DNA from: Kiritimatiellia bacterium
Lineage (GTDB): Bacteria; Verrucomicrobiota; Kiritimatiellia; RFP12; UBA1067
DNA: 42,529 nucleotides
Assembly (NCBI GenBank): GCA_017563185.1
Contig: JAFXIL010000061.1
Coordinates: 1 to 42,529 of the forward strand
Reading direction: 5' to 3'
Under the pieces are notes generated by a model. It saw only the letters and a list, made by a program, of their open reading frames with translations. It ran no database searches and was not told the origin of the DNA. The translations under genes were made by a program, and so were the position numbers. Each line of letters starts with the position of its first letter. The stretch's first letter is position 1. Positions 2,594 through 41,700 of the stretch are shown one piece after another.

Positions 2594-2715
2594 GGTGTAC
2601 GCCACTACCCTGCAATGAGTCACCACGACACAACGCAGAAGATGCGCCAGATCCGTTTCGGGCTAATCGAAAGTTCTACTTGCGATTGACACAGAGATAT
2701 GATGTCATACGCGCC

Positions 2716-3891
2716 ATGAAAAACATTTCAAGAGACATTGCACCGTATGCAAAATCGCTTGCGATGCAGTTTCCTGTACTTTCCATACAGGGGCCGCGCC
2801 AATCAGGCAAAACAACTCTTGCCCGCACGCTTTTCCCTGATTACGGCTATGTCAATCTTGAACATCCCGACACCCGTGCGGAGGCGGAAGGTGCTTCGTT
2901 TCTACGTCTGCACCCCGCGCCACTCATCATCGACGAAGTCCAGCGCATGCCGTCTCTTTTGAGCCGGATTCAGGTTGCGGTTGACGAACGCCCCGGCGAG
3001 AATGGGCTGTATGTCCTGACGAGATCGCACCAACCCGCCTTGCGGTCGGGTGTCGGACAGTCGCTCGCGGGACGCGTCGGCGGCTTGACACTCCTTCCGC
3101 TTTCTCTCGCCGAGCTGTCGGCGGCGGGAATTCATTCCGAGCGAGAGCGTCGCCTTGTCGAAGGGTTCATGCCGAGGCTGTTTTCGGAGCGCCAGTCTTC
3201 CTTTGAACTGTACCGGAACTACGCGGCGACATGCCTCGAAAAGGACGTGTCCCAGTTGACCCGCCTGCGGGAGCGACGTCCTTTCGAGACATTCGTCCGG
3301 CTTCTTGCGGGGCGGGTGGGACAACTTTACAACAGCGCGGGAATCTCGGACGAAACAGGCGTCAGCGCGCCGACGTTGCGTGGCTGGCTTTCGATTCTTG
3401 AAGCCTGTCACCTCGTATTCGTCCTGCCACCGTACTACCGCAACTTCGGCAAACGCTTCGTCAAGACGCCGAAGGTGTATTTCACCGAGCCCGGACTTGC
3501 GGCCTGGCAACTCGGCATAAGGGACAGCGGACAGGCCGTTCGCGATCCTGCGTTTGGAGGGCTGTTCGAAAACATGGTCGTCGTCGAGGCGCTCAAGACG
3601 CGGCTCAATGCCGGCCGGACGCCCGACCTCTACTTTATCCGCGATCAGTACGGCACGGAAATCGATCTGGTCGTTGAAGACGGGAGATCGCTCCACTTGT
3701 TTGAAATCAAGTCTTCCACATCGTTCTCCACAGATTTCACGCGCAATCTCGATGCCGTCCGCCGTGCGATTTCCGACGTCGCATCCGCAACGGTCGTATA
3801 TGGCGGCGATTCTCCCGCGGCGGTACGGGACATTGCGTTTGTGCCCTTCCGCGACTTGGCCGCGCACATGCGACGCCTTGGACTCGCATAG
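2716..3891 (+). CDS. AAA_14 / DUF4143 ATPase
   Basis: This 391-aa protein has an AAA_14 domain followed by DUF4143. Walker A is GPRQSGKT (about residues 26-33). Walker B is PLIIDEVQ. A winged-helix-like centre follows (GVSAPTLRGWLSILEA), then a C-terminal nuclease-like fold with FENMVVVEAL and EIDLVVE...LFEIKSS, resembling the D/E-(D/E)xK core of PD-(D/E)xK proteins. In relatives the sensor motif reads LTGSHQ; here it is LTRSHQ (Gly to Arg), which may impair ATP hydrolysis. The ATG at 2716 opens MKNISRD; an in-frame upstream start at 2680 has no family support. Its role is unknown, though this family is abundant in gut anaerobes and often found beside defence or mobile genes. Confidence 0.85.
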   Translation: MKNISRDIAPYAKSLAMQFPVLSIQGPRQSGKTTLARTLFPDYGYVNLEHPDTRAEAEGASFLRLHPAPLIIDEVQRMPSLLSRIQVAVDERPGENGLYVLTRSHQPALRSGVGQSLAGRVGGLTLLPLSLAELSAAGIHSERERRLVEGFMPRLFSERQSSFELYRNYAATCLEKDVSQLTRLRERRPFETFVRLLAGRVGQLYNSAGISDETGVSAPTLRGWLSILEACHLVFVLPPYYRNFGKRFVKTPKVYFTEPGLAAWQLGIRDSGQAVRDPAFGGLFENMVVVEALKTRLNAGRTPDLYFIRDQYGTEIDLVVEDGRSLHLFEIKSSTSFSTDFTRNLDAVRRAISDVASATVVYGGDSPAAVRDIAFVPFRDLAAHMRRLGLA

Positions 3892-4805: not shown

Positions 4806-5096
4806 TTAGTCAAGGGTAAACACGTCGGGAAACACCTTCGCGAATTTCGGCGCAATCTTCTTCTTTGAAACAGAGACCCGCACCTTGACGATGAAACCGC
4901 CGTTCTGCACTTGGGTATCCATCACCTCGAATGATCGGACATCGGCTTCCGTGATCGTCTTTATCTGAGCAACCACCTTGTCTCTATTCTCCTGAATCCG
5001 AGTCTTTGAATCTATCCAAGTACCGATAGTCCTCCACACCGCCTCGCGAATCGCCCAAAGTACCGCTGCATCCCTTGTCTTTCCTTTTCCTTGCAC
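4806..5096 (-). CDS. Small FlgT/LPP20-like domain protein, possibly 5'-truncated
   Basis: This 96-aa frame starts at GTG. The residues KGKTRDAAVLWAIREAVWRTIG, SKTRIQENRDKVVAQI and the strand GGFIVKVRVSVS follow the pattern of LPP20/FlgT N-terminal domains (Al..Av....G, T.v.n, g.y.v.v...v). The family-like reading extends upstream of the GTG (KVIRITVQGKGKT), yet no start lies between it and an in-frame TAA. No signal peptide remains although relatives are exported. The frame is cut just at a GGACTGTCC repeat (5135-5146), so the gene has probably lost its 5' end. Confidence 0.5.
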   Translation of the reverse strand: MQGKGKTRDAAVLWAIREAVWRTIGTWIDSKTRIQENRDKVVAQIKTITEADVRSFEVMDTQVQNGGFIVKVRVSVSKKKIAPKFAKVFPDVFTLD

Positions 5097-6085: not shown

Positions 6086-6493
6086 TCATTTGCTGAACGG
6101 CACACCTGAAGCGTCTTTATCAACAGTTACTGCCTCTATGATTCCCCAAATCCACGAGACAAACGCCAAAATGCCGCAAGATAAAACTGTGAGGCAAAGC
6201 TGAAGGATACCCTTTGCCGTATATCCAGCATAAAAATTATGAACTCCAAATTCACCTAACAAAATACCAAGCACCAAAAACGTTGTCTTGTTTTTCGCTG
6301 TGCCATCTTGCTGCTGCACCACAGTCTTTTGCACATTCAGAGCATATCCACATTCTACACAAACAATCTGTTCTGTCGCAATTTCAACGCCACAGTTTGG
6401 ACAGTACTTATTCCCCTTGCGAGGATCGCAGCCACAACCCATGCATGCCAAGGCGGCGGCGTCCACTTCCTTACCGCAATTTTTGCAAAACAT
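6086..6493 (-). CDS. Zinc-ribbon and TM2 domain membrane protein
   Basis: The protein opens MFCKNCGKEV and carries two zinc-ribbon units (CxxC...CxxC: CKNC/CMGC and CPNC/CVEC) in the first ~50 residues. A short linker leads to a TM2 domain: KTTFLVLGILLGEFGVHNFY, then AGYTAKGILQL and SWIWGIIEAVTV. TM2 proteins are two-helix membrane proteins common in host-associated bacteria; their function is mostly unknown. The ATG at 6493 is preferred over GTG at 6499 because relatives start at the first zinc-ribbon and AGAGAG lies at a suitable distance. Confidence 0.9.
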   Translation of the reverse strand: MFCKNCGKEVDAAALACMGCGCDPRKGNKYCPNCGVEIATEQIVCVECGYALNVQKTVVQQQDGTAKNKTTFLVLGILLGEFGVHNFYAGYTAKGILQLCLTVLSCGILAFVSWIWGIIEAVTVDKDASGVPFSK

Positions 6494-6740
6494 ACTCACT
6501 CTCTTTCTTAGCGCCTTCTACCGCACTTACAACACGTACTTCTCCCATAATCGTTGAAACCATGCACAGTTTCTGGAAAACCTTCCTGAGCGCGCACGTT
6601 CGCATCTGCTGCCATACTTTTTCCTACTTCCTTTTGCCCTTGTTCCGTTTGCGGCAAAAGAAAGAGGGCGTAATCCTCTGCCGTGTTGTGAGCTCAAGCG
6701 GCTAATACTTGAATCTCATTACATTATTAGCAAAAGTGAT

Positions 6741-6797
6741 GAGGACGTTACACTTCAAACGAAAAAAGTTTGAAAAAACTGTGGCTTGGCGTACGAC
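6741..6797. repeat. 57-bp direct repeat, left copy
   Basis: It begins GAGGACGTTACACTTCAAAC and includes a small inverted repeat, TTCAAAC then an A-rich loop then GTTTGAA. The right copy is at 8131-8187. The two differ at only a handful of positions including one A in a homopolymer. They enclose one gene, the AAA_14/DUF4143 ATPase. Confidence 0.85.
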
Positions 6798-6827
6798 GCG
6801 GCGGAGTTCGTGCCGCCGAGAACTATA

Positions 6828-6870
6828 CCATTCTAGTGCCTTGAACAGTTCGGTATTTGCCATTCTAGTG
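6828..6870. promoter_or_regulatory. Two 11-bp direct repeats 32 bp apart upstream of the ATPase promoter
   Basis: CCATTCTAGTG occurs at 6828-6838 and 6860-6870, a spacing of three DNA turns, ending 17 bp before the -35 box at 6888. This is the arrangement of paired activator or repressor sites. A hairpin (CGGCGG/CCGCCG) lies just before at 6799-6818. The rest of 6494-6923 holds no gene. Confidence 0.45.
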
Positions 6871-6887
6871 GATGCACTGGTTTGGCA

Positions 6888-6916
6888 TTGACAGGAAATG
6901 CCAGATCTGGTACACT
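6888..6916 (+). promoter_or_regulatory. Near-consensus sigma-70 promoter with leaderless start
   Basis: TTGACA (6888-6893), a 17-bp spacer, and TACACT (6911-6916). The ATG follows after 7 nt (6924), so the transcript should begin at or one base before the start codon. No ribosome site can be present on that mRNA. Confidence 0.8.
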
Positions 6917-6923
6917 GTGAACC

Positions 6924-8132
6924 ATGAAAAACACCTCCCTGAGAAAACGAATCTACGAAGCCGTGCTTGAAGAACATCTTCGCGACAATCGCCAGATGGC
7001 GTTTCTCACCGGCCCTCGCCAATGCGGAAAGACAACGCTCGCCAAGGCTCTTTCGGACAAATACTTCACCTGGGACGACCTCGCAACGCGGCGTCTCGTA
7101 GCAGGCGATGCCGCAGGGCTTGCCAATGCGGCCGACCTCGGCATCGCGTCCCACCGGAAAACCGTCATCACGCTCGACGAAATCCACAAGTTCGTCCGCT
7201 GGAAATCGTTTCTCAAGGGATTCTTCGACCTTTACGAAGACAGAATGAGCCTCATCGTCACCGGCAGCGCAAGACTTGACATATACAAAAGAGGCGGAGA
7301 CAGCCTGATGGGGAGATACTTTCTCTACCACATGCACCCGCTCGGAGTCGCAGAACTCGTCCGCCCCGGACTTGAAGCGACCGAGACTCATGCCCCGCTT
7401 CCCGTTCCCGAAGAAGACTGGAATGCTCTCTGGGCGCATGGCGGCTTCCCTGAACCGTTTGTCAGGCGCGATGTGCGATTCACGCATCGTTGGCGCAAGC
7501 TCCGCCGCGAACAGCTTTTCCGCGAGGACTTGCGCGACCTCACGAAGATTGCCGACATTGCCGGAATCAGGATCCTCTCCGAGCTCCTTCTTGCCCGCGC
7601 AGGCAGCCAAATCGTCACGGCCTCGCTTTCCCGCGAAATCGGCGTCGCCGAAACGACGGTGAAGGCGTGGATCGCAACCCTGGAGTACTTTCATGAAGGC
7701 TTCACCGTCCGCCCGTGGTTCAGGAACATCGAGAACTCAATACGGAAAACGCCCAAGTGGTATCAGAGAGACTGGTGCGAAGTGGCAGATGAGGGCGCAC
7801 GGTTCGAAAACCTTGTTGCCTGCCATCTGCTCAAGGCCGTTGACATGTGGAACGATCTCGGCCTTGGCGACTACGCACTCTTCTACATAAGGAACAAGGC
7901 CAAGGCGGAGGTGGATTTTCTCGTCGCGAAGAACGGTTCGCCTTGGTTTCTTGCAGAAGCGAAGACGTCCGACACGCGTATCACCCCTGCGCTTGCGGCG
8001 ATGCAGGAAGCCACGCAGGCCGCACACGCCTTTCAGGTCGTGCGAGACCTCCCCTACTCCGAAGCCGATGCGTTTTCCTACCGCGAGCCTATCGCGGTTT
8101 CCGCGCAGTCCTTCCTGAGCCAGCTTTTCTGA
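6924..8132 (+). CDS. AAA_14 / DUF4143 ATPase on a repeat-flanked segment
   Basis: This 402-aa protein has Walker A GPRQCGKT at residues 30-37, Walker B VITLDEIH near 82-89 and the sensor LIVTGSAR intact. The C-terminal DUF4143 half has RFENLVACHLL and a PD-(D/E)xK-like core (AEVDFLV...FLAEAKTS). It shares only family-level similarity with the ATPase at 2716-3891, so the two are not a recent duplication. The gene has its own strong promoter and is bracketed by near-identical ~57-bp direct repeats; the right repeat starts within its stop codon. It may be an acquired single-gene cassette. Its cellular role is unknown. Confidence 0.9.
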   Translation: MKNTSLRKRIYEAVLEEHLRDNRQMAFLTGPRQCGKTTLAKALSDKYFTWDDLATRRLVAGDAAGLANAADLGIASHRKTVITLDEIHKFVRWKSFLKGFFDLYEDRMSLIVTGSARLDIYKRGGDSLMGRYFLYHMHPLGVAELVRPGLEATETHAPLPVPEEDWNALWAHGGFPEPFVRRDVRFTHRWRKLRREQLFREDLRDLTKIADIAGIRILSELLLARAGSQIVTASLSREIGVAETTVKAWIATLEYFHEGFTVRPWFRNIENSIRKTPKWYQRDWCEVADEGARFENLVACHLLKAVDMWNDLGLGDYALFYIRNKAKAEVDFLVAKNGSPWFLAEAKTSDTRITPALAAMQEATQAAHAFQVVRDLPYSEADAFSYREPIAVSAQSFLSQLF

Positions 8133-8187
8133 GGCCGTTACACTTCAAACGAAAAAAAGTTTGAAAAAACTGCGGCTTGGCAGACGA
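8131..8187. repeat. 57-bp direct repeat, right copy
   Basis: It begins GAGGCCGTTACACTTCAAAC; the first two bases are the end of the ATPase stop codon. It matches 6741-6797 with a few substitutions and one extra A. Confidence 0.85.
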
Positions 8188-8210
8188 CAGAAGCGGTGCA
8201 AGGCAAACGC

Positions 8211-9278
8211 TCAGCGTCTGTCACCGGAGGCGTCGCTCTGCGCACGGATTATGCTCGTGTCCGACAAGCCCCATGGATAGCCGTCCATCGCGCGCACTTC
8301 TTCCAAAGTCCTTCCCTTGAAAACGACGCTTGCCAGTTTGCCGCATCCAGCCAATGCCTCGGCGCCCAGCGACTTCAACCCCTTCCCAAACGTGATGCTT
8401 GCAAGCCTCTTGTTGTACGAAAACGCATTGAAGCCGATGGTCTCCACGCTGTCTGGAATGATCCAGTTTGAAACACGCACGTCCTTGAAAGCCGTGGCTC
8501 CTATATGTTTCAATCCCGTCGCCAGGGTCACGTTCGTCAACGCGGAACAATGCATGAACGCCCAATTCTCGATTTTCGTCACGTTGCCGGGTATCGCGAT
8601 GCTCGCGAGTTCCCTGCATACGGCGAACGACTTGCCCCCGATTCTGCCAACGGAGTCTGGAATCGTCACGCTGCGCAGCTTGGCGCAATGACTGAACGCA
8701 TTCCACCCGATGTCCGTCACGGCGTTTCCGACGTTCAGGGACGTCGCCGCACTTTTCACGTTGACTGGTATGGAAGAGTCAGTCAACTCCCCCTGGATGT
8801 CGTAGCGGATGATCGCCGGCGCACCGTTTGACCCCACATACGCCATGACGGTCTGCTTTCCGCCATTTACGCACTCAACCAGCTCCGCAAGCCGGGCATC
8901 CTTGTCCACCGGCATATTGCGAAGAGCCGATTCAACGATGTTCGACACGACCGCCGGGGGAATGTCCGGAACCGCCGAATTGAGCGTCCTGAGCGCGTCC
9001 GCCGCCTCGTCGAACGCGCCCTGCCGCACGTAGAGCGTGAACGCGCCCTTGAGAAGCAATGTCCGCACCGCATCGGAATCCACCTTTTCCGCGTACGCGA
9101 CGGCGGCCTTGGCAACGTCCGCACGCGTTTTCTTGCCGGCTCCGAGCGCCTCCCGTTCCGGGCGCATGATCTCCAGCACAGGCCCCTCGGCCCGCTTGAG
9201 TTCCTGCCTCGTCGGCATCGCAACGAGCGGCGTCGTAACCGCCGCCAGTGAAGCAAGGGCAATCGTCCGAAGTCGCAT
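8211..9278 (-). CDS. Secreted BspA-type leucine-rich repeat protein (LRR_5)
   Basis: This 355-aa protein has a signal peptide (MRLRTIALASLAAVTTPLVA). A helical region follows at about residues 25-140, where AFTLYVRQGAFDEAADAL suggests a TPR-like pair. Five or so BspA/LRR_5 repeats come next, of the type W.AFSHCAKLRSVTIPDSV, FAVCRELASIAIPGNV and FMHCSALTNVTLATGL. Such domains mediate surface binding in Treponema, Tannerella and gut bacteria. The gene lies 6 nt after the ECF sigma factor gene, so it is probably the last gene of the kinase-sigma operon and could be its output or sensor. Confidence 0.85.
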   Translation of the reverse strand: MRLRTIALASLAAVTTPLVAMPTRQELKRAEGPVLEIMRPEREALGAGKKTRADVAKAAVAYAEKVDSDAVRTLLLKGAFTLYVRQGAFDEAADALRTLNSAVPDIPPAVVSNIVESALRNMPVDKDARLAELVECVNGGKQTVMAYVGSNGAPAIIRYDIQGELTDSSIPVNVKSAATSLNVGNAVTDIGWNAFSHCAKLRSVTIPDSVGRIGGKSFAVCRELASIAIPGNVTKIENWAFMHCSALTNVTLATGLKHIGATAFKDVRVSNWIIPDSVETIGFNAFSYNKRLASITFGKGLKSLGAEALAGCGKLASVVFKGRTLEEVRAMDGYPWGLSDTSIIRAQSDASGDRR

Positions 9279-9284
9279 CCCGGT

Positions 9285-9899
9285 TCAGCCTTTCGTATCT
9301 TCGTCGGAAAGTTCGGCCTCGACGAGGGAGATCGCCTTCTCGACGCGGAACTTGATCTGCCGGAGGTGGTTGTCGTCGATGCCGAACTCCCTGCATACCT
9401 CTTCTGCGGACTTGCCTTCGAGCACATGTGCGCGATAGACGGCCTTGGTCTTGGCCGAAAGCGCGGTCTTCGTGAGAACGTGCCGCACCGCCGCTTCGCG
9501 CCTTGCCTTTTCCCATGCAAGGTCGAGCGCGACGCCCTGTTCTGGCTGGACGATCAGCGACTCCTGCAAATCGTCCAGTGAAACGCCGGCGCCCGCGCCA
9601 TGGGACCGTTCGCGCCTGTACATCCCGATGAGCCGCCTCCGTATGAGCATTTTAAGGAAAGTGCGGAACTGCGATTTTCCCGCATCGTATCGCCGCTCCG
9701 ACAAAATCTTCACGAGATGCATGTACACATCCTGGACCACGTCGTCGGGATCGTGGTTGTGGTCGACCATCTGGACGAATCGCTTCATCACGGGCGTGTA
9801 GAGGGAAAAGAAGCGCGTCCACGCAGCGCCTACTTCGCCCGTTGCCTCGGCCGCCAGCTTTTCCAGAAGCGTCTGCGATGTACTTGGGAAGTCGTTCAT
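9285..9899 (-). CDS. ECF-type RNA polymerase sigma factor
   Basis: This 204-aa protein has sigma region 2 at about residues 28-98 (RFVQMVDHNHDPDDVVQDVY, then FRTFLKMLIRRRLIGMYRRE). Region 4 at about 145-195 has the helix-turn-helix KSAEEVCREFGIDDNHLRQI. Its ATG overlaps the stop of the kinase gene in an ATGA tetranucleotide, indicating coupled translation. The open frame extends upstream through the kinase, but only this start gives a normal ECF length. ECF groups linked to Ser/Thr kinases are known in Planctomycetes and Verrucomicrobia. No anti-sigma factor is present, so the kinase is the obvious candidate regulator. Confidence 0.9.
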   Translation of the reverse strand: MNDFPSTSQTLLEKLAAEATGEVGAAWTRFFSLYTPVMKRFVQMVDHNHDPDDVVQDVYMHLVKILSERRYDAGKSQFRTFLKMLIRRRLIGMYRRERSHGAGAGVSLDDLQESLIVQPEQGVALDLAWEKARREAAVRHVLTKTALSAKTKAVYRAHVLEGKSAEEVCREFGIDDNHLRQIKFRVEKAISLVEAELSDEDTKG

Positions 9900-10906
9900 T
9901 TCTGCACCTCGAATATGCCGTCCGCGCTGAACGCCTCCGCGAAATCGTCTTCCGCCGCCGAAGGCGCAGGGGCGCGGAAAGCGAACCATGCCGCAACGCA
10001 AACGGAGATGGCCGCGGCAAGTCCGCAGCCAACCACTGCAACGGCCTTCCATCCCCGTGCCGGCCTTCTGCCAGACCGCGCCTCCGGCGCGAGCCGCTTC
10101 GCCAAGGCGCGGAGTTCGGACGGGCGTTTCCCCGGATCCTCGGCAAGCATCTGCGGCAACACCTGCGACCACGGGAGTTCAAGCGTCTCGAGGAGCTCCA
10201 GCGCGCGCGAACCGGGTTCGTACCACACGCCGGTGAGCAGGTATACGGACATCAGGGCGAACGAATACACGTCGGCCGCCGGAGTCGCCACCTCGCCACG
10301 CGCCACCTCCGGCGCCATGCAGCCATGCGTTCCCATCACGAGGCGCGAGCCCGTCGCCTCCGCGACCATTGTGGCGGCGGCATGAACCTCGCGGCGCAAG
10401 CTGTCCGAGAAAAGGCGCGACACGCCGAAGTCGGAGAGGACTACGCTCCCGTCGTCCGTCAGCAGCACGTTGCCGGGCTTGATGTCGCGGTGGACGATTC
10501 CCTGCGCGTGGATGTAGTCGATTGCGGACGCAAGTTCCGTGAACCAGCTGCGTACGGTTTCCTCTTCGAGGCCCTCGCCCGCGGCGTCCGAAAGGGTACG
10601 CGGCGCGCCGTCCGCTCCGAGCACGAGATCCATCACGAAATACGGCGTCTGGGTCGCATCGTCGAAATCGAGGTCGAACACGCGGATGACATTTGGATGG
10701 CGCTGCCGCGCCAGAACCCGCCCCTCCGACAGGAACTTCTCCTTCAGGACGTCGACGTGGCCCTTCTTCGGCGTGAACGACTTCAGCGCGTAGTGGACGC
10801 CGAGCTGCCCGTGCACGACTTCGTACACCGCTCCCATCGCGCCCTTGCCGAGGAGCCGGACGACGCGGTACGCGCCGATCTCGTCATCTGGACCAAACTC
10901 CGCCAT
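9896..10906 (-). CDS. Hanks-type Ser/Thr protein kinase, membrane-anchored
   Basis: This 336-aa protein has all the main kinase motifs: glycine loop GKGAMG (20-25), Lys42, Glu61, HRDIKPGN (139-146), SDFG (158-161) and MAPE (197-200). A single membrane helix at about residues 287-309 is followed by a ~27-residue tail, so the kinase domain should be cytoplasmic. No PASTA or other extracellular sensor is present; the outer tail is short and acidic. It is coupled to the sigma factor gene by ATGA. Phosphorylation of the sigma factor would be a plausible signal path; this is inference from gene order. Confidence 0.95.
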   Translation of the reverse strand: MAEFGPDDEIGAYRVVRLLGKGAMGAVYEVVHGQLGVHYALKSFTPKKGHVDVLKEKFLSEGRVLARQRHPNVIRVFDLDFDDATQTPYFVMDLVLGADGAPRTLSDAAGEGLEEETVRSWFTELASAIDYIHAQGIVHRDIKPGNVLLTDDGSVVLSDFGVSRLFSDSLRREVHAAATMVAEATGSRLVMGTHGCMAPEVARGEVATPAADVYSFALMSVYLLTGVWYEPGSRALELLETLELPWSQVLPQMLAEDPGKRPSELRALAKRLAPEARSGRRPARGWKAVAVVGCGLAAAISVCVAAWFAFRAPAPSAAEDDFAEAFSADGIFEVQK

Positions 10907-33419: not shown

Positions 33420-36400
33420 TCATTTAATAAAGATGACGCAAGACTGAGGCTCGTAGAAGAGACCGTCCGATTTCGAGATCATCATGCCATTGCGGTCGCC
33501 CGCAAGACGGAAGCGGATCTTGGCAGTCGGGCGTTCAGACCAGGAAAGAATCTTATCGCCCTTGTTCAAATCGAGATCGCCCACATCGATTAAGACTCTC
33601 TTCCCCTCGGAGAAGGTCAGCCAATTGTGCCCGTCGGTGTCATAGGGCAGTTCGCGTTCCTTGAGGTCTATCACCGCCGTGCCGGGGAATCCGGCGAGCG
33701 ACGTTGCCATCTCGCCGTCACGCAGGAGGAGCGTACCGGTAAACGTGTGGATTGAATTGACGGAGGCTGTGCCACCCGTGAGAATGATTGTGCCAGTGAA
33801 GTCAGACAAGCTGCCCAGAAGGCTCGGCGTGCCGCCGGCGAGCTCGAACACGCCCGTGCCGTGAGCGTGGCTGTTCGCATTGAAATGGAAGTTGCCACCG
33901 CTCGTCAAAATCGTGCCGTTGTTCTCCACGCGGCAGGGGTTGTCAGTGCCGTTGCGGTTGCCGAGCCAGAATTCGCCGGCCATGTGGTTGACCGTTCCAT
34001 CGTTCACGAAGAGTCCGCTTGTGGCAACGAACTGATACGGCGTGCTGCTTCCGGACGTCAGATTGATGTTCATCGTCGCGCCCGTCTTGTTGGTGATCGC
34101 GCCTGAGTACCAAGGAGCCATGGTCAGGAAATCGCAAGTGCATCCGCTTTCGACCGTTATGGGTCCATTGATGGAGTACCAGTAATTGTCGCTTCTAACC
34201 ACGCCGCCGCCCTCGCGCACTATGATGGGCATCGAGAACTGCTGTGTCTTGTTCTTGTCCGAATAGCTAGCCAATATACCGCCGCGCTCTAGGAAGATCG
34301 TTCCCGTTATGCCCATCACGCACCCGGAGCAGGGCTGGAACATGCCGCCGTCCGCCACCACGACATCCTTGCAGTTCAGATACGCCGTTCCGCCGCAGAG
34401 CGCGATGCAGCCCAGATTCTTGATCGTGAGGGTATGGCCCGCGCCGTCGATGCCGTAGCCGTTCCCGCGGAAGTCGATGCGCGAAGTGCCGCCGATCGTC
34501 GCGTCACCCGTCATGACGACGTGTTCAAGATGATACCCCCATTGGCTCCCGGTGGCGTTGTTGACGATCGCGCCAGAGCCGTCCGGACCTTCGCCTTCGA
34601 TGCGGAACGCCTTTCTGCGGACGGGCGAACTGCCGCCGCCCTTACTGTAGTTGATGTCAAACTGGCCCGTACCGTTCACGGTGATCGTACCGCCCGCGCC
34701 GAACACGTCGGCCGTCGTCACGCCGAGCTTGAAGGTGCCGCCGGAGATGGTGATCGGAACGTCGGCGGCGAGCACGCCGCCGCTCCACGTGAACATGCCC
34801 TCGCCATCTACGGCGAGCGAGAAGTTTCCGGCGATCGAGAAGTCCGCCGTCTTTACAAAGTTCGTTCCCGCGCCAAGCGTGAAGCGCACCTCGCCGCGAT
34901 GCGACGGGTCTGTGGAGGCATCGCTGATTGGAAATGCGGTTTCGCTGCCGGGTGCGCCATGTATGACAAGGCGGTGTCCATTGAGGCTTATCGGCCCCGC
35001 CTGCTCGCTTGAGACGAACGTCTCCCAGCCGCCGAGCGGCACGTCCGCGCCAAGCGTGACGATCGTCTCGTAGTTTGGAACGCCGTTTTCCACCACCTCG
35101 TTCGCGCTGTTCACGCACGTCCAGTTGCGTGCGTCGCCGTATTCGCCGTTCCCGGCCGCGCCGGTCCACGTGGCATAGATGGCGTCGGTGTCGCTGACGC
35201 CGTAGTAGAGGCCGATCGGCGTGGAGACGAGCTCTATGCCGCTCTGCGCCGTCTCTTCGTCGAGCGTGAAGACGAGAGAGGGCACCGTCTTCCAGCTGAG
35301 CAGCTTGTCGCCCTTCGAAAGATTGCGGCCCTTGAGGTTGATCGTCACGGGCTTGTTCTCGGGAAGCGTCGTCCAGCCGCTTCCATCAAGCCTGAAAGAC
35401 GTATCCCTTCCCGAAAGATCGAACACCACGGGGCACACCACGCTACCGAGGCTGGTTGCGACCGTGCCGCCGGCCATAACGAGCGTGCCTGTAAAATCGG
35501 AAAGGAAGGCAAACGACGCCGTTCCGCCAGAGACGCGGATCGTGCCCGTGAAGTCCGAGAGGTCGCCTTCCATCCTGGCCGTGCTGCCGGCGAGGTCGAA
35601 GACGCCTGCGCCGTGCGCGCTGTTCTCCGACCTGAAGTAGAAGTTCCCGCCCGTCGTGCGGAACACGCCGTTGTTCTCCACGCGGCAGGGATGCGTCTGA
35701 TCGTCTCTGCTGCCAAAATAGAAGTTCTTCGCCGTGTGGACTACCGTGCCGTCGTTCCTGAAGATACCGCCGACCGCGAAGAAGTCGCCGCCGATGTTGA
35801 TCGTGGCGTCCGTCTCGTTGGTTATGGCGGCGTACCACGGGCCGTCCGTGGGGCAGTCAAGCGTGCAGCCGTCATTCACCGTGATGGGCGCGGAGATTCT
35901 ATACCAATATGAGGACGAGAGGATTTTCCCTCCGCCCTCGCCGACGGTGACCGGGAAATAGAGCGTCTGGGTGTTCCCGTTGGCCCAGCTCGAGAGGATG
36001 CCGCCGTTCTTCAGGACGGCGCCGCCCGTGATGTCCATTATGCCGCCGTTGTTGCACGGCTCCAGCGAGCCGCCGTCCGTGATGACGACGTCTTTGCACT
36101 TGAGATAGGACTCGCCTTCGCAGAACGCAATCTTGCAGCCCTTCACGGTCAGCGTCTTGTCCGTGCCGTAGAGGCCGACAACATTTCCTCCCCTGCTCCT
36201 GAAGTCGATACGGGAGATGCCTCCGATGGTCGCGTCGCCTGTCATCATGACTGTGGAGAAATGCTGGGCCGAGCCGCCGATCGTTGCGTTGTTCACGATG
36301 GCTCCCGAACCATCAGGGCCTTCACCCTCGATGTAGAACTCTCTGGCGTAAGAAGGCGCCATCCAGTCGCCCCAGCCGAAGTGGATGTCATACTGGCCCT

Positions 36401-37484
36401 TGTCTTTGATGGTGAAAGTGCCGGCGGTGCCAAAGACATTCATCGGCCAGGTGTCGAGGCGGAAGAGTCCGTTCGTGACGAGAATAGGCGACTCTTCTGC
36501 CACGGTGCCGCCGCGCCACGCGAGCGTACCGGGGCCGTCCTTGACGAGCGTAGCGCCGCCCGTCACGCACCAACCGGGGTTGGGAAGCGTCTCCCCGTCC
36601 GGCACGGTCACGCACACAGTGCCGGGCGATTCCGTCTCGTCGGTGAACTCAGGCGCGTCGCCGTTGCCGCCGGGGCGGACGTAGCCGATCTTGAGCGTAT
36701 GGCCGTCGAGATGGACTTTCACGCCGGCGGAGATTGCGACTGTCTGGGCGGACCAGTCTTCGTCGCCCGTCAGATGGTAGTCCATGGAGACCACGCGGTC
36801 GGCCGCAGGAAGGAGTTCTAGCGAGCAGGAGCCGATGATCATGGTGCGATCGACGTTGGCCTCCTCTTCGCTCTCGGCGATGCCGTAGAGCTGGAACGTG
36901 TATGATTTTCCAGCTTCGAGCGGCACGTAGCGCATGACGTTGCGGTAGCGGCAGTCGTCCGTGAGCGCCACCAGCTCTTCGAGCTCGTTAGTGACGACGC
37001 CGCAGATCACGGAGATGCCGATGCGCGAGCCATCCCGATGGTAGTCATGGCGCGTGGCATACTGGCAGGTGAAGGCGTAGAGACCTGTCGTCTCAGGCGT
37101 CACGGTCTGCGCGAGCCAAGATGCGCCAGTCGCATAGTCCTTCGCCATCTGGATGAATGCGCGGTAGTTGTCCTTGTCCGAGTCCGGCAGAACGGGGCGC
37201 CATGTGGTGTCGTTACTGGCCGCGATGCCGGCCTGGCCGTAGCCCGTCCAGTTCTCCAGCAAGATCTGGCCCTTCTCGAAGTAGCCCCACTTGCCGCTGT
37301 TGCTGTTCTCGGCGATGGTTGCGCTCTCAAAGTCTGGATTGAGGAAAAGATTCGGATATCCAAACGGCCCAGTGCCCTCGGCGTTAGCCGACATGGCAAC
37401 GAACACCGCAACTGCAAAAGCAACTGTAGAGAGGAATCTTGGCGTTGTACCCCCTCTGACAATTCCATCGGTCATGATCCTCAT
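33420..37484 (-). CDS. Giant secreted beta-helix protein with internal duplication
   Basis: This 1354-aa protein has a basic start and a signal peptide ending near SANA. A galactose-binding-like N-terminal domain follows (NLFLNPDFESA..., LLENWTGYGQAGI, TPETTGLYAFTCQYATR). A long series of short Gly/Asn-rich strands comes next, as in autotransporter-associated beta-helix proteins. Two ~575-aa units repeat in tandem (IEGEGPDGSGAIVNNAT, GDATIGG.SRIDFR, CKDVV..DGG, CRVENNG, LSDFTGTI). Each ends with KGDK.LSW. No outer-membrane barrel or sorting motif is evident. The start at 37484 follows AAGGAG; the much longer open frame upstream crosses the divergent promoter region. Confidence 0.85.
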   Translation of the reverse strand: MRIMTDGIVRGGTTPRFLSTVAFAVAVFVAMSANAEGTGPFGYPNLFLNPDFESATIAENSNSGKWGYFEKGQILLENWTGYGQAGIAASNDTTWRPVLPDSDKDNYRAFIQMAKDYATGASWLAQTVTPETTGLYAFTCQYATRHDYHRDGSRIGISVICGVVTNELEELVALTDDCRYRNVMRYVPLEAGKSYTFQLYGIAESEEEANVDRTMIIGSCSLELLPAADRVVSMDYHLTGDEDWSAQTVAISAGVKVHLDGHTLKIGYVRPGGNGDAPEFTDETESPGTVCVTVPDGETLPNPGWCVTGGATLVKDGPGTLAWRGGTVAEESPILVTNGLFRLDTWPMNVFGTAGTFTIKDKGQYDIHFGWGDWMAPSYAREFYIEGEGPDGSGAIVNNATIGGSAQHFSTVMMTGDATIGGISRIDFRSRGGNVVGLYGTDKTLTVKGCKIAFCEGESYLKCKDVVITDGGSLEPCNNGGIMDITGGAVLKNGGILSSWANGNTQTLYFPVTVGEGGGKILSSSYWYRISAPITVNDGCTLDCPTDGPWYAAITNETDATINIGGDFFAVGGIFRNDGTVVHTAKNFYFGSRDDQTHPCRVENNGVFRTTGGNFYFRSENSAHGAGVFDLAGSTARMEGDLSDFTGTIRVSGGTASFAFLSDFTGTLVMAGGTVATSLGSVVCPVVFDLSGRDTSFRLDGSGWTTLPENKPVTINLKGRNLSKGDKLLSWKTVPSLVFTLDEETAQSGIELVSTPIGLYYGVSDTDAIYATWTGAAGNGEYGDARNWTCVNSANEVVENGVPNYETIVTLGADVPLGGWETFVSSEQAGPISLNGHRLVIHGAPGSETAFPISDASTDPSHRGEVRFTLGAGTNFVKTADFSIAGNFSLAVDGEGMFTWSGGVLAADVPITISGGTFKLGVTTADVFGAGGTITVNGTGQFDINYSKGGGSSPVRRKAFRIEGEGPDGSGAIVNNATGSQWGYHLEHVVMTGDATIGGTSRIDFRGNGYGIDGAGHTLTIKNLGCIALCGGTAYLNCKDVVVADGGMFQPCSGCVMGITGTIFLERGGILASYSDKNKTQQFSMPIIVREGGGVVRSDNYWYSINGPITVESGCTCDFLTMAPWYSGAITNKTGATMNINLTSGSSTPYQFVATSGLFVNDGTVNHMAGEFWLGNRNGTDNPCRVENNGTILTSGGNFHFNANSHAHGTGVFELAGGTPSLLGSLSDFTGTIILTGGTASVNSIHTFTGTLLLRDGEMATSLAGFPGTAVIDLKERELPYDTDGHNWLTFSEGKRVLIDVGDLDLNKGDKILSWSERPTAKIRFRLAGDRNGMMISKSDGLFYEPQSCVIFIK

Positions 37485-37567
37485 GCTCTTCTCCTTTTGA
37501 GTGATGACGCAAAAAGCATACCACAAATCACAGCGGAATTGTTGAACATTCCTCAATCTGCCGAAGA

Positions 37568-37585
37568 AACCTGCATTGGCAGGTT
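37568..37585. promoter_or_regulatory. 18-bp inverted repeat in the divergent region
   Basis: AACCTGCATTGGCAGGTT, a 7-bp stem with a 4-nt loop, between the giant secreted protein gene and its divergent regulator. It is followed by TTTTCT on the plus strand, so it could also be a weak terminator. An operator of the GntR-LacI protein is the better guess. Confidence 0.45.
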
Positions 37586-37629
37586 TTTCTCGTTGGAGGC
37601 GATTTCGCCACCACGACAATATCCTGAAA

Positions 37630-37638
37630 TGATATACT
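37630..37638 (+). promoter_or_regulatory. Extended -10 promoter, leaderless regulator gene
   Basis: TGATATACT (hexamer 37633-37638), then 6 nt, then the GTG start at 37645. Transcription would begin at the start codon. Confidence 0.65.
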
Positions 37639-37644
37639 AGTATC

Positions 37645-38733
37645 GTGATTGAACGTAGCGCAAAATACCTTGCCGTGGCGGACACGCTGAAGCGCGAGAT
37701 CCTGAACGGCAAATACGAATCGCACGAACGTTTCCCGAGCGAGGAGACGCTTGCGCGCAGGTTCGGCGCAAGCCGCCCCACCGTTGAGCGCGCGCTCAGG
37801 GAACTGAAGCGCGAGGGCCTGCTGGAGTCACGCAGCGGTTCCGGATCGTACCTCACCTTCGCCGCGCGCAACGCGGCCGGCGCACTCGGCGTGATTGCCC
37901 CCGACTACCACAAGATCGACTTCTTCACGGACCTATGCGACGGCATCGCGTCCGCCGCGCGCGCCGCCGGATACGACACCCTCCTCGGCGACGTCTCCGC
38001 CCCGGAGGCGCGCGACCGAGGGCGCTGGGCGCTCGACATCGCAAACGCCTACGCCTCGCGGCGCACGGCAGGCGTATTGCTGGAACCTGTGGACCTCATT
38101 CCCGGCTCGCACGAGGCGACGAAGAACGTGCTGGACGTGCTTGCGGCGAAAAACATCCCCGTCGTCCTCATCGACCGCGACTACCTGCCGCCGCCGGCGA
38201 GAAGTCCGTACGACCTCGTGGGCATCGACAACATGCAGGCCGGCTACCGGCTCGCAAAGCACCTGATCGATGCGGGCGCGCGCAACATCCGCTTCCTCAC
38301 CCAGCCCAACTACGCCAGCACCATCCGCGCGCGAATCCAGGGCGTGGCGCAGGCCGCGATCGACGCAGGACTCGTCTGGACGAATGACTTCATCGTGGAG
38401 ACTTCTCCCGGCGACATCGCCGCATTCAGGCGGCTGATGCGCGGCAAGAGCCGTCCGGACGCCTTTGTCTGCCGCAACGACCCGCTCGCGGCGCAGCTCC
38501 TCCAGACGCTGGGGACGCTCGGCTTCAAGGTGCCGGACAAGGTGCGCGTGGCCGGATTCGACGACGCGAAGATCACGAAACTGCTCAACCCGCCGCTAAC
38601 CACTATCCGCCAGCCAGTGAATCTTCTCGCCGAAACCGCGGTCGCGTCGCTTCTCCAGCGCATACGCAACCCCGGCCTCGCCCCGCGTGCAATCCTCCTC
38701 GACACGCAGATGGTCGTGCGCCGCTCAACATGA
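37645..38733 (+). CDS. GntR-LacI hybrid transcriptional regulator (AraR-like)
   Basis: This 362-aa protein has a GntR winged helix in residues 1-70 (YESHERFPSEETLARRFGAS, RPTVERALRELKREGLLESR, GSGSYL). A LacI-type periplasmic-binding-protein fold follows (LGVIAPDYHKIDFFTDLCDG, VLLEPVD, IPVVLIDRDY, VGIDNMQAG, GFDDAKITKLLNPPLTTIRQ). This is the AraR architecture, sensing a sugar and releasing DNA. It is divergent from one giant secreted protein and convergent with another, so these are its likely targets. It probably binds the 37568-37585 palindrome. The start is GTG, fixed by the -10 box 6 nt upstream. Confidence 0.9.
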   Translation: MIERSAKYLAVADTLKREILNGKYESHERFPSEETLARRFGASRPTVERALRELKREGLLESRSGSGSYLTFAARNAAGALGVIAPDYHKIDFFTDLCDGIASAARAAGYDTLLGDVSAPEARDRGRWALDIANAYASRRTAGVLLEPVDLIPGSHEATKNVLDVLAAKNIPVVLIDRDYLPPPARSPYDLVGIDNMQAGYRLAKHLIDAGARNIRFLTQPNYASTIRARIQGVAQAAIDAGLVWTNDFIVETSPGDIAAFRRLMRGKSRPDAFVCRNDPLAAQLLQTLGTLGFKVPDKVRVAGFDDAKITKLLNPPLTTIRQPVNLLAETAVASLLQRIRNPGLAPRAILLDTQMVVRRST

Positions 38734-38795
38734 CCAGCGTCTGACCCATCATTATCATCAAGGCAATAGCCCTAGCCCGAGATGCCGAAGTCGCG

Positions 38796-41700
38796 TCAGC
38801 GAACGATGATGAAAGTACCGGCGTACATGTAAAGGCCGTCGTCTTTCTTAATGATGGAAAAACGCCGTTCTTTGTCGCCGCACACGAACTTGAGCCCCTC
38901 AAGATTTTCTGGAGCGGTCTCCCAGCTGACGATCGGCGTCTTGGTCGAGGCTTTCCATCCGCCCAGCTTGACCTTGACCGTCGCGTCGTCAGCGAACTTG
39001 AGCGTGTGGTCGCCTCCCGTGAACGCCGAGACGCGCGGCAGCGCGTTCGTCCGCGACGAGAGGTCGATCGTCGAACCGTCCTGCATCGTGCAGCCGTAGA
39101 AGTAGTCGTGCTCGGACGGCTTGAACGCACCGTAAACATTCAGCGCCGCCGTGCCGCTGTTGTTGTTGAAGTTGTACGCCACCTCGTAGTCATGTACGCT
39201 CAGATCGGTGCCGATATTCAGCGCGCAGCCGACAATGAAGTCCACGGTCCGCGCGTCGCAGGCGGAGGTAAGCGTCTGAAACCAACCGCCGGAGGTGATC
39301 TTGATCTTGCCCGGGCCCTGCGGCGCCAAGTCCTGGAACTTGAGGTTCTTCGCATTCGCGATGGCGACTTCAAGCGTATGTCCGTTCAGGGCGAAATCTC
39401 CGTATTGAATGTTGAAGTCGCCGGTGGTGGTAAGATAAGAATCGGCTGTAAGGCTCGTTGCGCCGTTGAACAGCGTCGTGGAACCCTTCACCGTGCCGCC
39501 GTTGAACACCACCGTCGTGTAGCCGAAACCGTGATACCCGTTGATGTCGAGCGTCGCGCCGCCATCGACGGTGACGCGCTGCGCACTGACGTTCGCCGTT
39601 CCGTTTCCGCCCAGTGGCCAGTTTGCGGGCTCTGCCGCGTACGTCAGCGTCCCCGCCGCGACCTGCGTGCCGCCCGTGAATGCCTGGTACGCCTTCTTCA
39701 CGACAAAGGTTCCAGGTCCTGTCTTCACGAACTTCAGATTGCCCGTGAGCGCCATCTTCGTGCTGGTCGTCGTTGCGTCCTGCGGAACTTCCACTTCAAG
39801 CGATCCGACCTGCTCTGCGGAGTTCGTCACGGTGAACACATTGACGCCGCCGGCCAGCACGGCGGGCAGCTTGAGGAGTCCGCCGTTGGCGTCGAACACC
39901 GTCCCGTCTCCCACCGCAAGCGATTCCGTCCTCGTGAAGTCGAAGGTCGCGCCTGCGGCGTTCGTGAACTTGTTTGTGGCCAGCACGAACGCGGCGGGCG
40001 AAACCGCCGGCGTGACTGCGCAGATCGCGTCGTATTCCGCAGCGGTCGTGAACCGCACCTGCATGTTGCCCGTCACGTTGCCGCCCCACTCGGTGTCCTG
40101 GACGCCGCTCGTGTAGAACTGCCAGCCGTCGTTGACCCACATCGCGTACTCGGGCTCGCCTGCAGCCTTGATGTAGAGGCCATCGTCCTTCACCGCAAGG
40201 GCCTTGCCCTCCACGGCCGCACCGTTCGCCACCAACGCGAAGCCCACCGTCGATCCAGGCGCGGAACCCGAAGGCCACGAGACGAGGCACGTACCGACGT
40301 CGGAACTGCGCTCGCCGATCTCCACGTTGACTGTGACGCCCTCGGCGAACTTGAGCGTGTTGTCGCCGGTTGTAAAAGCGGATGCACGCGGCAGCGGCGT
40401 CGTCCTCGCCGAGAGGTCGATCGTCGAGCCATTCTGCATCGTGCAGCCGTAGAAATAGTCGTGGTCGACGCCGGGCTTGAACGTCCCATACACGTTCAGC
40501 GCCGCCGTGCCGGTGTTGTAGTTGGCACCGAACACCGCCTCGTAGTCGTGTACGCTAAGCGCGGTGCCGAGATTCAACGCGCTGCCGACAATGAAGTCCA
40601 CGTTCCGCACATCGTATGCGGCGTTGGCCGTCTGCATGTAGCCGCCAGAAGTGATTTTGATCTTGCCCGGGCCCTGCGGCGGGCAGTTGTCGAACTTGAG
40701 CGTCTTTCCTACGGCAATGGCGACTTCAAGGGTGTGTCCGTTCAGGACAAGCGGACTGCTGGCGGTTTGCATGTTGAAGTTGCCGGTGGCGTTGAGATAC
40801 GAATCGGCGGTCAAACTCTTTGCGCCGTTGAACTGCGTCGTGGCGCCCCTCACCGTGCCGCCGTTGAACACCACCGTCGTGTAGCCGAAGCCCGTCTTTC
40901 CGTTGACGTCGAGCGTCGCGCCGGCATCGACGGTGACGACCTGCGCGCTGGCATCCTTTGTTCCGTTTTTGCCCAAAGGCCAGTAGGCGGGAGCTGCGTC
41001 GTACATCAGCGTTCCGGAGGCTACCTGCGTGCCACCGGTGTAGGTCTGGCCGGTTTTGGAGAACATGAAAAGCCCATCCCCTTCCGTCACGAGCTTCAGC
41101 ATGTTCGCAAGCGTGATCTGGCTATTGTAGGTCAGGGTTCCCTCCGGAACGACCACGTGCAGCTCGCCCCCGCCGACGGCGTCGGTCACCGTCGTGGCGA
41201 GCCAAGGATCAAGCGTCTTCACGTAGAGCTTGTGACCGGACGTGTTGATCGTGAGGTTCGCCGCCGTCGTCATCACGGAGGCGTACGGCGTCAGGTCGGC
41301 GTCGGTTGCCATCGTGATGCTCGACGAGATGTGTACCTGCGTGTACTTGTTGGGAAGCGCGTCGGGAAGCGCCGTGCCGTCTGCGGCCTTGCACGTCCAG
41401 CTCGAAGTCTCCGCAGGATCGCCTCCGTTCCACACCGCCGTCGCGGGCGCGCCGTCCGCGTCGTGCAGCGCCACCGAAAGGTCGCACACACCGTATCCCC
41501 CCGCCCAAGCCGATGCCGATGCGATGCTGTTGTTGTTCACGACGACGCCCGTCCCGGCGTCGTTCGTGAATTTCCGCCCCAACCTGTCGTTGTAGAGACT
41601 GTAGTACCCTGCTTTGAAGGCGGTCGCATGCACGCCGTCCTCGCCGTTCGTGAAGCGGACGGCCACGCACTTCGCGTACCCGGCCGGCACCTGCATCTCG

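Follow-up and report, generated by a model that had tools for sequence, protein, structure and literature searches.

A solitary AAA-DUF4143 gene between long direct repeats at a sigma-linked promoter of a Kiritimatiellia bacterium, and its probable insertion with target duplication

The stretch of DNA analysed here (the window) comprises 42,529 nucleotides of contig JAFXIL010000061.1 from a Kiritimatiellia bacterium (assembly GCA_017563185.1). The gene at 6924-8132 (plus strand) encodes a protein of 402 aa with an AAA ATPase, a winged helix (residues ~212-264) and a PD-(D/E)XK-like domain (D331, E345 and K347). The protein matched Pfam AAA_14 (1.7e-22) and DUF4143 (2.3e-20), and the PDC-S01 models of PADLOC covered it nearly whole (1.7e-45 over residues 5-369); its conserved features include the Walker motifs and the D..ExK signature of a PD-(D/E)XK fold. 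In the structure model (mean pLDDT 91.7), a strand comes after helices at 212-255, which is the order expected of a winged helix, and Foldseek added little, with matches to generic AAA+ proteins at low TM-scores. The gene probably acts alone, in phage defence or as an addiction-type gene. A second, distant AAA-DUF4143 gene is located 3 kb to the left (2680-3891, plus strand), and a bracketing repeat was sought around it and none was found.

Two copies of a direct repeat of 58/59 bp (6740-6797 and 8130-8188; 92% identical) enclose the gene at 6924-8132, with a start-to-start distance of 1390. Their alignment has 54 identical columns out of 59, with four substitutions and one single-base indel, and its local-alignment score is 45, whereas the highest value reached when the same flanks were resampled 2000 times with a Markov-1 model was 14.5. 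The earlier note had placed the copies at 6741-6797 and 8131-8187 with few differences, which was right within 1 bp; it also correctly described exactly one enclosed gene, a right copy overlapping the stop codon (the TGA at 8130-8132 is the start of that copy) and a TTCAAAC/GTTTGAA hairpin in each copy. The setting of this hairpin is an A/T-rich promoter-upstream element, not a G+C-rich terminator. The DUF4143 gene is the sole Pfam-matched gene between the repeats, and no transposase or recombinase ORF was found there. When the 3.2-Mb genome was searched, the repeat was present in these two bracketing copies only, and no Rfam or tRNA match was obtained in the window. Elsewhere in the window (~34300-40000), strong direct repeats occur in or near very long ORFs of 1483 and 1243 aa.

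On the minus strand, the left copy (R1) appears to provide the upstream half of a promoter directed leftward, with an intact -10-like part after it. The promoter-like motif GTGTAACG-N11-TTTGCTAAT (6723-6753, minus strand) is complete at the left copy only; the right copy stops short of the -10 half, at the end of the DUF4143 gene. In genome G012, a shorter version of the repeat lies on the opposite strand, directly upstream of a gene adjoining a sigma factor, in the order GTGTAACG, 11 bases, TTTGCTAAT, ribosome-binding site and ATG. A pattern search for the motif matched in G000, G010 (twice, 1.7 kb apart), G012 and G059, and the reversed control pattern matched nowhere in the same search. Because of the G012 layout and this pattern search, the repeat is read as the upstream half of a promoter that points left and is tied to the neighbouring sigma-factor locus. 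To the right of the repeats lie the gene of a signal-peptide protein with LRR_5 repeats (8211-9278, minus strand), whose N-terminal part is common to the proteins beside the empty sites described below, and that of a Sigma-70 region 2 protein (9285-10172, minus strand), which we infer to read the interrupted promoter. Several sigma-linked signal-peptide proteins occur per genome; those in the window (8211-9278) and at L047, L048 and L050 have a common N-terminal part and differing C-terminal domains, LRR_5 in the window and other folds in the relatives.

Sites like the empty one that the earlier note proposed to look for are present in two relatives of diverged species, G010 (L048) and G059 (L047); each has a single repeat copy with the left flank of the window, and a DUF4143 gene is absent. 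The left flank common to the window and these sites consists of a hairpin element, R2 (CTTTTGCC...GGCAAAAG; 6629-6690, minus strand), and the -10 region, and to the right there is a homolog of the right-hand protein of the window together with a sigma gene. Since the right-hand proteins are 60-64% identical over the N-terminal part and have a different C-terminal domain, these appear to be empty sites of the same kind that may not be strictly orthologous. Compared with the one-copy sites, each copy in the window has a private change (A for C in the left copy, one extra A in the right copy), as would be expected from an old duplication of one sequence, and since each copy has changes of its own, the bracket arrangement is not a recent one. 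No insertion or excision event was observed at the level of strains. Conservation of the gene in place in all relatives is excluded. Close homologs occupy other places, and in G059 one is present on another contig. Without a gene, the repeat was found only as these single-copy sites at the same kind of promoter.

That R2 might mark one end of a mobile element was considered and rejected, because R2 is also present at gene-less sites and recurs elsewhere at 84-88% identity; from its distribution it is read as a low-copy intergenic element. R2, which recurs at L027 and L201-L203, adjoins several close DUF4143 homologs and is also found at sites without them. At L040 (G021:C183, 3217-3345), a decayed homolog of which only the last 43 codons are left directly follows an R2-like element.

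Long direct repeats were then sought around 129 close homologs from many phyla, 123 of which had enough flank, with a bracket defined as a direct repeat of score at least 20 between 700 bp upstream and 400 bp downstream. By this definition 25 of the 123 lay between long direct repeats, different in sequence from that of the window, a raw rate of 20% that is overstated because five of 22 repeats checked for extra copies in their own genomes were dispersed (L215, L217, L035, L033 and L107) and prove nothing; four in five close homologs had no bracket. Among spacer-matched controls (genes with an upstream spacer of at least 100 bp), 5/137 were bracketed (Fisher p=2.5e-5 against the homologs), and the corresponding counts were 6/266 in a larger set of control genes, 29/1717 at positions of the same geometry and 12/66 for distant DUF4143 genes. 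A first control set (2/218), which contained a DUF4143 gene and was unmatched for spacer, has been superseded by the spacer-matched set. The repeats range from ~30 to >200 bp, with copies 76-100% identical, and the left edge of the unit varies among cases. The repeat of the window, which the earlier note proposed to look for around other DUF4143 genes, does not accompany them: the sequence differs from case to case (L210 and L211 have one repeat in common), and in the window it is the sigma-linked promoter half. Most bracket cases should be separate events, because the repeats are different sequences although the homologs are related by descent.

Half of the repeats checked, 11 of 22, were confined to the bracketing pair: those of the window, L218, L239, L220, L206, L153, L142, L114, L113, L101 and L108, where the assignment of L206 (31 bp) rests on the pairwise repeat alignment, its second copy being below the search threshold. 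In three (G016, L109 and L098) the pair was accompanied by extra matches that were weak, partial or single, and three (L131, L133 and L111) lay in arrays. The reading that all bracketed homologs are target duplications was rejected on account of the five dispersed repeats. Some repeats consist of coding sequence, in most cases the 3' end of a neighbour gene; by names read from translations these are an lpdA-like gene (L153), a higA-like antitoxin (L113) and a vapC-like toxin (L218), with an unnamed 300-aa gene at L142, and at L153 and L113 the neighbour gene still runs to its stop codon.

These counts bear on the explanation that the promoter half had been duplicated earlier, or that dispersed repeats already existed, so that the gene merely lies between copies and no target was duplicated at its insertion. 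The five dispersed brackets and the recurrence of R2 would agree with it. It is nevertheless unlikely: the repeat of the window is nowhere else in the genome and is found once per site in the relatives; the enrichment of brackets even over spacer-matched controls, and the several repeats that are coding sequence of neighbour genes, also speak against it.

In one relative, G340 (Omnitrophota), contigs C64, C56 and C41 (L281, L280 and L282) contain recurring 3'-end pieces of a sugar-epimerase-like gene, with single cassettes between the pieces. These include four AAA-DUF4143 genes, Gp49/HigA-like pairs, Bro-N proteins, RhuM, a YhcG nuclease, an IrrE-like protein and others. The arrays look like serial insertion at one target, with a duplication each time. 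A further case, L284 (G346, contig C29), has three copies of one repeat ~1.8-2.1 kb apart, which enclose a P-loop kinase or zeta-toxin-like gene with an integrase-like ORF and then a DUF4143 gene; a nucleotidyltransferase-like gene lies beyond them.

The single gene with its stop codon overlapping the repeat, together with the array-like contigs of G340, resembles an integron gene cassette, and a classical mobile element, either such a cassette or a remnant of a transposon or insertion sequence, was therefore weighed. It is highly improbable. Transposon target duplications are usually shorter than the repeats found here, the unit contains no recombinase ORF, and the repeat is host promoter sequence. 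The integron/attC reading in particular was rejected, since the genome has two copies only and no attC-like series, and every homolog has another repeat.

Insertion of the Campbell type is a possible alternative that we regard as somewhat doubtful. A donor circle, carrying the gene and one copy of the neighbour sequence and itself formed by recombination between repeats, would have recombined with the resident copy, so that the repeats would be the region of homology and not a duplication made by cutting, with the same final structure. The unit without a recombinase, the wide range of repeat lengths and identities, and the arrays with their apparent serial insertion at one target favour this, and it could explain later spread after a first insertion. 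However, the private change in each window copy is equally explained by simple duplication, and the first linkage of the gene to each new sequence is left unexplained.

The candidate operator pair of the earlier note is present at ~6828-6889 (plus strand) as two imperfect CCA...TGG palindromes, 32 bp apart and directly before a -35-like TTGACA, and it recurs in homologs. Most homologs have two upstream 26-bp palindromes of the CCA...TGG form; in 66 of 118 genes the pair exceeded the 99th percentile of the null, and in 58 of these 66 the spacing was exactly 32 bp. The operator cores vary among homologs, and operator similarity tracks protein segment 231-260 best of all segments, with a partial r of 0.30 over 54 genes that is corrected for the rest of the protein and ignores kinship. 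The correlation drops on either side, with segments starting outside 221-261 at 0.12 or below. This points to the winged helix of the protein itself as the binder of the operators. Because operator divergence tracks this domain, autoregulation is likely, in which the protein would repress its own promoter through the two operators. At L101, a 36-bp repeat with an operator-like palindrome is found both before and after the gene (4914-4949 and 6203-6238), so that the operator itself is duplicated as part of the bracketing repeat.

Considering these observations, we propose as the most plausible model, with a probability of roughly 0.65, that a self-repressing, probably defence- or addiction-type single-gene unit inserted in a sigma-linked promoter and duplicated 58/59 bp of its target. 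The DUF4143 gene and its operators would form the unit, which would have entered between the -35-like and -10-like parts of the leftward promoter; the left copy would retain the whole promoter, and the right copy would be its displaced remainder. The arrival of a one-gene cassette with long repeats, as the earlier note suggested, is supported by the gene-less one-copy sites and by the brackets around many related genes, with the change that the repeat is local target sequence. Two routes could be envisaged for the movement of the DNA. A circle with one target copy might recombine by homology, which agrees with the variation in the left edges, with the missing recombinase and with the arrays; alternatively, wide staggered cutting followed by repair would produce the duplication and would need an enzyme. 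That the nuclease-like domain of the gene itself makes the staggered cut is only a guess.

Insertion with long target duplication has been proposed for restriction-modification genes (Nobusato et al., 2000; Furuta et al., 2010; summarised in PMC3874152, PMC3031569 and PMC1643837), and the best reading of the window is a variant of this with another gene family. Both cases have a unit without a recombinase, direct repeats of variable length made of local host sequence, and genes proposed to be selfish or defence-type; the one-copy sites in diverged relatives may be a further point in common. In contrast to a restriction-modification pair, the unit here is a single AAA-DUF4143 ATPase with a nuclease-like domain, and it carries a conserved operator pair. 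Its likeness to self-regulated toxin-antitoxin and restriction-modification units (PMC3874152), which are compact, often mobile and presumed to use transcriptional feedback, is similarly incomplete, since one protein appears to combine the ATPase, DNA-binding and nuclease-like parts and its autoregulation is deduced from the operators. Integron gene cassettes share with it the single gene between repeats, the stop codon at the repeat and the array-like contigs of one relative, whereas the unit has its own regulated promoter, repeats of local host sequence, no attC family and no integrase.

PDC-S01 is described as a candidate single-gene phage defence with an ATPase and PD-(D/E)XK (PADLOC; PMC12988326, PMC13356809), an architecture that the window protein matches over nearly its whole length. 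Among defence annotations across prokaryotes it is reported to rank fourth in frequency (PMC12988326), and in a rumen survey it was the single locus found most often (PMC13356809). The available sections of these two accounts do not validate antiviral activity and contain nothing on bracketing repeats or operators. In the literature that we found, long target duplication is unreported for the AAA-DUF4143/PDC-S01 family, and nothing is said on the spread or control of these genes.

The similar but differing duplications in many relatives suggest movement of these genes one at a time, each as a self-regulating unit. A wider and quite speculative proposal is that AAA-DUF4143, toxin-antitoxin and other solitary defence-type genes use a common recombinase-free route with long target duplications, which can build integron-like arrays as in G340, and that dual-operator autorepression lets the units work in any host. 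On its own the window case would be modest; it gains weight from the brackets seen across the family and from the operator result. The pattern is real and fairly general around a very abundant, untested gene family. Long target duplications offer a signature for finding and comparing PDC-S01 insertions, and the operator pair a direct handle on the regulation of these genes. Furthermore, a family annotated in tens of thousands of copies would join the restriction-modification genes, for which this route has been proposed.
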